DNA of 64,000 nt from Diaphorobacter aerolatus. GTDB taxonomy: Bacteria; Pseudomonadota; Gammaproteobacteria; Burkholderiales; Burkholderiaceae_C. Position numbers and translations under genes: made by a program. Under the pieces are notes generated by a model, which had not been told where the DNA came from, searched no databases, and saw only the letters and a program-made list of their open reading frames with translations. Below are positions 48,507-49,169 of this stretch, piece after piece. The DNA is taken from contig NZ_CP060783.1 of assembly GCF_014489535.1 (NCBI RefSeq), positions 1,302,001-1,366,000 on the forward strand, given 5' to 3'. Every line of letters starts with the position of its first letter. Position 1 is the first letter of the stretch.

Positions 48507-49169
48507 TCAGTCTTGCGCTTGCGGATAGTGACAGACCGCCTCGATGTTGTGCCCATCGGGATCGAGCACAAAAGCGCCGTAGTAATCGGGGTGGTATTGG
48601 GCCTCAGGCCCGGCGCACCGTTGTCGCGCCCGCCCGCAGCCATTGCGGCCTTGTAGAACGCATCCACCTGCGCGCGGCTTCTGGCCCGAAAGGCCACGTG
48701 AATGGGTGGCTGATTCGGACTGCCCCGGCTAGGGCCTGTTCACCCAACCCACGGGGTCGCGCAAGCCAGGCAGGGCCGCTCATGCTAGGCGCGTGACGCC
48801 GCGCGGGTAGGCACCCGCGCAAGGAACGCAACACCGCAGGGGCGGCCCTGCCTGGCTTGCCCGAAGGGTTGTGCAGTCTTGGGCGGTCTGCGGCGTTGCA
48901 GTCTCTCGCAAGGTACCTACCTTGCTTCGAGCCTGCGCCTTGCATCCCATCCCAAGACTGCACAACGCGATCCCCGTGCGTTGGGTGAACAGGCCCTAGT
49001 CCAGAAATCATGCTTGGGCGCCTCACCGAATCCTGCCGTATCGGTGTGGCCGGTTTTGAGCCGCAGAGAGCTGCTTCAGCATCGCATAGCCCAGCGGTTC
49101 GAGCGCCTGCTCGTAGAACGCAAGGGACTTGGCAAAGTCGGAAACCATCACTCCGGTGTGATCGATCAT
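48507..49169 (-). pseudogene. VOC-family (glyoxalase-like) protein gene split by a small mobile element
   Basis: Reading from ATG 49169 (MIDHTGVMVSDFAKSLAFYE) the VOC fold proceeds to EAPKHDFWT, is interrupted by a 267-bp insertion, and resumes SRGSPNQPPIHVAFRARSRAQVDAFYKAA to VLDPDGHNIEAVCHYPQ. Removing the insertion plus one CTA copy rejoins the frame exactly. Two other indels are present: an extra T in the run 49054-49057, the only insertion seen, and a missing base at 48599-48601. About 130 residues, as expected for the family. The function was probably metal-dependent lyase or dioxygenase-like, now lost. Confidence 0.8.
48732..48998. mobile_element. 267-bp MITE-like element with terminal inverted repeats and internal hairpins
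   Basis: Ends GGGCCTGTTCACCCAAC and GTTGGGTGAACAGGCCC are perfect 17-bp inverted repeats, extending to about 30 bp with one mismatch and one gap (CCACGGGG/GCACGGGG). A CTA target duplication flanks it. Inside, GCAAGCCAGGCAGGGCCG (48761-48778) pairs with CGGCCCTGCCTGGCTTGC (48843-48860), and TTGTGCAGTCTTGGG (48869) pairs with CCCAAGACTGCACAA (48951). No transposase is encoded, so it must be moved in trans. Confidence 0.85.

Follow-up and report, generated by a model that had tools for sequence, protein, structure and literature searches.

The element that interrupts a VOC gene in Diaphorobacter aerolatus is very probably a non-autonomous MITE of the IS5 type, moved in trans, whose interior consists of an inverted pair of conserved hairpin units; this reading rests on sequence comparison. 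It apparently belongs to an undescribed superfamily of MITEs with a structured core, and its new part is a conserved double-hairpin module that is found across the class and in one family beyond it, between unlike ends. The window, meaning the whole stretch of 64,000 nucleotides that was analysed, corresponds to positions 1302001-1366000 of a 4.95 Mb genome assembled as one contig and estimated to be 94% complete. The following features were assigned, where R1 denotes a covariance model of the hairpin unit.

48512..48731, minus strand: 3′ part of the VOC (glyoxalase-superfamily) gene, with one further frame break (tblastx; family from congener copy L198)
48729..48756, plus strand: left arm of the terminal inverted repeat or closing stem, including the CTA of the site (96% complementary)
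48730..48731, plus strand: left TA of the target duplication, inside CTAG (flank sequence; 29-copy census)
48732..48996, plus strand: MITE-like element of 265 nt, GGGCCTGTTCACCCAA...TTGGGTGAACAGGCCC (five genome copies of 264-265 nt, 97-100% identity)
48763..48859, plus strand: hairpin A, a core-hairpin unit (R1, 77.7 bits)
48783-48839, plus strand: conserved core of hairpin A (sequence comparison of units)
48860..48868, plus strand: CCCGAAGGG, the junction between hairpins A and B (read from the sequence)
48869..48964, minus strand: hairpin B, a core-hairpin unit inverted relative to hairpin A (R1, 84.2 bits)
48888-48944, minus strand: conserved core of hairpin B (sequence comparison of units)
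48972..48999, plus strand: right arm of the terminal inverted repeat or closing stem, including the TAG of the site (96% complementary with the left arm)
48997..48998, plus strand: right TA of the target duplication (flank sequence; 29-copy census)
48999..49169, minus strand: 5′ part of the VOC gene, with one further frame break (tblastx; family from congener copy L198)

Three empty sites, together with near-identical copies at other positions of the genome, support insertion of the element into the VOC gene. In congeners G005, G002 and G004 the site is empty, the two flanks, matching at 76-82%, lie 2 nt apart, and the VOC frame runs uninterrupted for 129 aa; the family assignment comes from congener copy L198, which matches Pfam Glyoxalase at 4.5e-11. 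A search of 29 other genomes with the 5′ flank as query gave matches in three, each a congener of the host. The query had been translated one base out of frame, and comparison at the DNA level and by tblastx identified the matches as true homologues; with this off-frame query no match to the 5′ flank was obtained in congeners G001 and G003. A preliminary description of the locus had argued that removing the element restores the reading frame and thereby proves a recent insertion. This does not hold, because tblastx comparison with the congeners revealed one frame change before the insertion in the flank on the 5′ side of the gene (right in window coordinates) and another after it in the flank on the 3′ side, so that excision would leave the frame broken. 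The breaks may reflect decay or assembly indels in this single-contig genome. Recent spread itself is upheld on other grounds, namely four further copies of 264-265 nt that are 97-99% identical to the window element. The same description had named a single copy in all genomes, with no empty-site allele, as the outcome that would speak against it; the element is instead multi-copy, and its site is occupied by an intact VOC gene in three congeners. Copies of the element disrupt genes, the VOC gene being an example.

The element proper spans 265 nt and is flanked by a TA duplicated within a CTAG site. An element of 267 bp at 48732-48998 had been proposed; the element stands, and its length is corrected since the last two positions are one copy of the duplicated TA. 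The sequence around it reads ...ggCTA / GGG...CCC / TAGtcc..., and the direct duplication is therefore TA (CTAG with the terminal G and C included) rather than the CTA suggested earlier. The terminal inverted repeat is long, as described, with 28 nt at 96% complementarity, and it encloses both hairpins. Hairpin A has a perfect outer stem of 18 bp (48762-48779 / 48842-48859) within 29-nt arms that are 90% complementary, and hairpin B a perfect stem of 16 bp (48868-48883 / 48951-48966), in agreement with the two perfect internal hairpins of 15-18 bp first noticed. Between the hairpins, CCCGAAGGG or something similar was also seen by eye, uncounted, in other copies. Folded as RNA, the element reaches -199 kcal/mol (z = -17); 200 dinucleotide shuffles gave -120 +/- 4.7, and not one of them (0/200) folded as low. 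Among the listed reading frames, the longest wholly inside the element encodes 61 aa and two of 140-141 aa overlap it. Being short, without a transposase gene, and having terminal inverted repeats, a target duplication, dispersed copies and empty sites, the element shows the properties by which MITEs are recognized. The motif GGTAGG occurs in both apical loops of the window element (48805-48811 on the plus strand and 48911-48922 on the minus strand); the apical loops of units from other genera mostly differ from it.

A single imperfect hairpin unit of ~97 nt makes up both hairpin A and hairpin B, in opposite orientation. The unit has a core, TGCnAGGCGC...GCAACnCCGCAG, that spans 57 nt in both hairpins and 57-59 nt in relatives, apart from one shortened copy of 45 nt, while the outer and apical stems are rewritten. 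RNAalifold analysis of 23 units returned 24 pairs, 19 of them with changes on both sides.

By BLAST, five copies measuring 264-265 nt, the window copy among them, are present in the host genome with 97-100% identity. A 16-nt element end gave 119 matches at up to 2 mismatches, compared with 1 for the reversed pattern. From these 119 end matches, 29 copies were assembled by pairing both ends by hand; this census excludes the two pairs that enclose genes, as well as L007b (51 nt) and L259, a doubtful pairing of 232 nt. The 29 copies range from 42 to 265 nt and fall into size classes: five of 264-265 nt, two of 206 and 216 nt, nine of 170-176 nt, two of 132 and 137 nt, and eleven of 42-106 nt. The nine copies of 170-176 nt retain hairpin B, and some of the smallest class are reduced almost to their ends. 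In several short copies the junctions coincide, by eye, with short shared motifs, consistent with internal deletion; the shorter copies would accordingly have lost one or both hairpins in this way. TA adjoins the left end in 20/29 copies, the right end in 20/29 and both ends in 15/29, compared with a background TA frequency of 0.014, and is absent from at least one side in 14/29. An exact 4-bp duplication was found in 8/29.

A tblastn search of the host genome with the IS5-family transposase of congener G001 as query gave no match. Nine DDE_Tnp_1 matches were detected in that genome; element ends were absent at the seven loci inspected, and at the other two no end lay within 4.5 kb among the matches listed (100 of the 119 ends). 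Long end pairs were considered as candidates for an autonomous partner and rejected: two were seen (933 bp and 1475 bp, again among 100 of the 119 ends), both without a transposase. A same-genome autonomous partner, which is a supporting and not a defining criterion for IS5-family ends, was thus not found in the host genome. The 933-bp pair (L021:1022-1954; G000:C1:4336721-4337653) consists of two inverted element ends around an NADPH-dependent FMN reductase-like ORF, with no hairpin; judged by sequence, this ORF is a possible passenger gene between MITE ends. In the 1475-bp pair (L022:1017-2491; G000:C1:3006516-3007990) an RtcA-like ORF lies between two inverted half-elements. Both ORFs were named by reading their translations.

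Matching ends were found in a congener. Genome G005 yielded eight tblastn matches to the G001 transposase, and each of the six IS copies read is 829 bp long. In all six, one end is exactly GGGCCTGTTCAC, identical to the first 12 nt of the element, and the other agrees at 11 of 12 positions; beyond these shared 12 nt the IS and element ends diverge. TA was present on both sides in 5/6 IS copies, as in 15/29 MITE copies, indicating the same kind of target. In Pfam, the two frames of the IS score above the cut-offs for DUF4096 (73.6 bits) and DDE_Tnp_1 (46.7 bits). Among NCBIfam models each half fits IS5_3 best, and the scores of 98.8 and 99 bits lie below the cut-off of 110 because halves were scored against a whole-protein threshold. 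We take this two-frame IS to be of the IS427 type. A related IS in G001 has the ends GGCGTGTTAACAC / GTGTTAACAGGCC at CTAG. The likely mobiliser of the element is thus an IS5-family transposase, judging from the shared ends; one of the G005 type, not found in the host genome today, would have mobilized the element in trans after recognizing its ends. The transposase with matching ends that the preliminary description had proposed to seek was located, then, in a congener and not in the own genome, and its label of MITE-like is borne out: the element is multi-copy, has inverted ends and a target duplication, is missing from its site in congeners, and is matched at its ends by this congener IS.

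An autonomous partner does share the genome with a core-bearing MITE in G009 and G029. In G009, of nine ISs read, three end GGGC(C/G)TGTTAACAC; that genome also holds a MITE whose first letters are GGGCCTGTTAACGC, and the best model for the IS is IS5_3, with halves at 103 and 108 bits. G029 contains an IS ending GGCAACGCTGA beside TTAA, whose transposase matches NCBIfam IS5_4 at 338 bits, over the cut-off. The MITEs of G029 with the GGCAACGCTGA end show an exact 4-bp duplication in 7/9 cases (CTAG twice, TTAG, TTAA, CTAA, CTAT and CAAA), in a census that leaves out two extra end pairings in L106. By these comparisons, MITEs with this hairpin appear to combine it with ends from two or more IS5 subgroups, which differ in duplication length. 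Elsewhere, MITEs of Azotobacter and Halomonas begin CTAGGG(T/C)CTGTTGACGTTT, and an element in G056 (L190), GGGTCTGTTGACGTTT, starts in a similar way and surrounds a weak tblastn match (E about 1e-7). For the end GTGTCCCTTAACA, no inward-facing pair 0.7-2.5 kb apart was seen in G188 among the matches listed and G359 gave no match; for GTACTCCNTCAAGG, none was seen in G374, G262 or G227 among the matches listed. In this IS search, 9/20 regions are cut off by a contig end shortly beyond the element end.

Those nine draft contigs (L211-L214 of G188 and L216-L220 of G374) indicate that the repeat breaks assemblies, so that copy counts in draft genomes may be too low; R1 provides a ready model for annotating a repeat at which several draft-genome contigs end. 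On a contig of a Treponema MAG (L100:274-717), a frame resembling the C-terminus of an IS5 transposase ends in GTTGTGTGAACAGGCCC followed by TAG. This is the same end as that of the element, in another phylum; the fragment has no Pfam match. Seven stretches with the element's ends were also seen in a Burkholderiales MAG.

MITEs are usually regarded as remnants of one IS. The element could be a plain internal-deletion derivative of one IS5 element, with inner palindromes that arose by chance and have no function, and its ends, target and size classes do fit IS5-type MITEs. Such elements can be mobile: in the available text of PMC3189936, MITEPsy1 of Pseudomonas syringae is described as a non-coding element of 100 nt with inverted ends and observed mobilisation, for which the IS5-type ISPsy2 was proposed as mobiliser from its terminal repeats. 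Its target is CTAG or YTAA with a 4-nt duplication, and its authors considered its distribution in P. syringae somewhat restricted, adding that similar sequences might be widespread (PMC3189936). Compared by description, MITEPsy1 resembles the element in being non-coding and in its inverted ends, IS5-type mobiliser and CTAG target, but it is 100 nt long and no hairpin core is described for it in the available text (PMC3189936). A plain derivative of this kind nevertheless appears very unlikely. The ISs whose ends match (L152, L137 and L192) contain no R1 match, a single one in L231 lies at the locus edge, outside the IS, and the 57-59-nt core spacing is kept unit after unit and recurs between different ends. 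Because the hairpin unit lies between other IS5-type ends in other genomes, we favour a shared module that is not bound to one pair of ends, placed within a MITE moved in trans.

The distribution of this module is broad. R1 detected units in 79/120 genomes of the host family, some with at least 34 units; in 81/274 genomes of a class sample, with up to 15 scored per genome and 62 families by our own count; and in 50/249 genomes of a phylum sample, with up to 16 scored per genome. Units were absent from 41 host-family, 193 class-sample and 199 phylum-sample genomes. These samples overlap and all include the own genome, and the searches used stricter filters and gave rough E-values. Outside the class, the phylum sample contained 31 matches, of which 23 belong to one family (f227), some with 13-15 copies; the other eight had one or two weak matches each (E 1e-6 to 7e-4) and may be chance. 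The fold had been called unusual for a simple MITE, which was right and understated the case, given that a covarying hairpin unit recurs over about 60 families of the class sample.

Eighty fresh copies taken from places listed by R1 contained 127 units: 34 loci with one unit, 45 with two and one with three, the third unit of the latter overlapping on the other strand. An outer inverted repeat was found in 64/80, with spans of 260-289 nt in 46 and 160-199 nt in 11; the filter combined a score with a span of 145-345 nt, limiting the spans that could be observed, and dropped the remaining 16/80. TA lay near both ends in 35/64 of these copies compared with 4/63 shifted positions.

Covariation was assessed in these sequences with a 40-pair structure, which was derived by folding the same sequences and is therefore biased towards them. 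In this structure 85.1% of cells pair, compared with 54.1% after shuffling, and 1617 cells carry changes on both sides, compared with 546. The covariation score was 0.722, with 0.175 for shuffled and 0.094-0.152 for slid controls. The finding that 36 of 40 pairs show a both-side change is uninformative, because shuffles give 33.8 and 13/500 reach 36. Pairs adjoining conserved core bases hardly vary and say little on covariation. Template switching can preserve complementarity between the arms of a long palindrome, so covariation alone is no proof of selection. It is tentatively possible that the pattern arose in this way, by mutation that copies the palindrome arms onto each other: the mechanism is a known one, and outer-stem columns are 79-98% paired despite containing all four Watson-Crick pair types. 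However, it leaves unexplained the conservation of core sequence, spacing and mismatches over many families. In the reading that we favour, the core would be kept because its folded form, whether as a transcript or as single-stranded DNA, aids persistence of the element, or because a protein that binds the core does so.

If the RNA of one strand were selected, G-T mismatches should outnumber A-C mismatches. Among isolated mismatches, 91 were G-T and 34 A-C, and the core strand as RNA folded better than its complement in 107/127 units and worse in 17 (mean difference -4.9 kcal/mol). The 31 variable pair columns together held 221 G-T and 107 A-C mismatches; G-T was the commoner in 21 of them and A-C in 8. 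Columns 19-132 and 65-93 alone supply 63 of the 221, and because the rows are related such counts are not independent. Outer-stem columns 1-15, summed by hand, gave 82 G-T and 59 A-C. With each unit read in its own core orientation, the G-T:A-C ratio in two-unit loci was 78:19 for the first unit and 74:38 for the second, and solo units gave 69:49. The bias is thus mixed, and hints at one-strand recognition per unit and not at one RNA.

These data bear on two further explanations. First, a structured RNA, such as an attenuator, an RNase III substrate or a small RNA, may be the selected thing, with mobility merely spreading it. We regard this as possible but doubtful. The very stable fold, the strong covariation, the better folding of the core strand and the G-T excess would all be expected of such an RNA, as would the position of two of the four annotated plasmid copies between co-directional genes. 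On the other hand, the hairpins are inverted, so that a single transcript holds one sense and one antisense core, and yet both first and second units show the G-T excess in their own orientation; the excess in the outer-stem columns is slight (82 vs 59). Rfam 15 returned no match across 6 kb around the element at E<=1, and no relevant match at 18 related loci at E<=0.5, where the only hit was nhaA-I, away from the element. That nhaA-I riboswitch match lies near a G005 copy (L055:478-538) and scores 40.8 bits (gathering score 37).

Second, REPs are bound by RAYTs and attC sites by the integron integrase, and by analogy the core might be a single-stranded DNA or cruciform recognition site bound by a recombinase, a transposase or a host protein. 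The near-constant spacing of the core, its conserved unpaired bases and the strand asymmetry of both units in core orientation would suit this, the inverted pair meaning that each strand presents one sense core. We consider it unlikely all the same: the target duplication indicates a DDE transposase working at the ends, no protein partner was found in a search that covered IS5-type transposases, and a REP tag is not visible in the consensus.

Known repeats offer further points of comparison. Correia/NEMIS in Neisseria and ERIC in enterobacteria are short palindromic repeats with size classes and a TA target, and NEMIS give rise to hairpin transcripts. By description, the element differs from these in containing two inverted copies of one conserved unit and in occurring across many families. 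Both groups appear in a table of PMC2267715, the available text of which reports hairpin transcripts for Yersinia ERIC. According to the available text of PMC3733652, a REP is a palindrome of 20-40 bp that carries a GTAG or CGTC tag; REPs have a high copy number and frequently form inverted pairs. The element shares with REPs and BIMEs the palindromic units, inverted pairs and high copy number, but has units of ~97 nt, IS5-type ends and a target duplication (PMC3733652). Membership of the REP/BIME group was considered and rejected, as the unit is 97 nt long and the consensus of 23 units has no GTAG or CGTC tag. A stem-loop survey of 2008 lists, among other SLS families, Bor-1 and Pae-1 as structured intergenic repeats of Bordetella and Pseudomonas, Pae-1 being a double hairpin with an 84-nt model and Bor-1 having models of 93 and 117 nt (PMC2267715). 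Its available text names no transposase ends or cross-genus core for them (PMC2267715); they may be related to the hairpin family, or unrecognised members of it. The words 'hairpin' and 'Burkholder' do not occur in the available text of a 2024 review of prokaryotic MITEs (PMC10969869). The literature searched, with most subscription journals outside its scope, contained no description of the core; one of five core strings was found, in a paper whose title and abstract concern an unrelated subject.

One structured core thus recurs between unlike ends in about 60 families of the class sample with no Rfam match, which makes it testable whether the folded shape of a transposon passenger is selected. 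With low confidence, we suggest that the hairpin unit could itself be the genetic entity, a structured module maintained throughout the class and in one further family, repeatedly acquiring the ends of different IS5-family (perhaps other) transposases and having a selected function in its folded state, as RNA or as single-stranded DNA to which a partner binds.

In a phage collection, two query elements gave no match. R1 matches also occur in plasmid or chromid records of Variovorax paradoxus, Comamonas odontotermitis, Azotobacter chroococcum, Halomonas sp., Mitsuaria sp. and Cupriavidus basilensis. No annotated feature underlies the 13 matches listed, in gene tables that are incomplete for plasmids (2/6 plasmid records fetched carry one annotated feature each). 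Co-directional genes flank 2/4 annotated plasmid copies, and an IS481-family transposase gene (L345:430-1368) adjoins the Cupriavidus plasmid copy.
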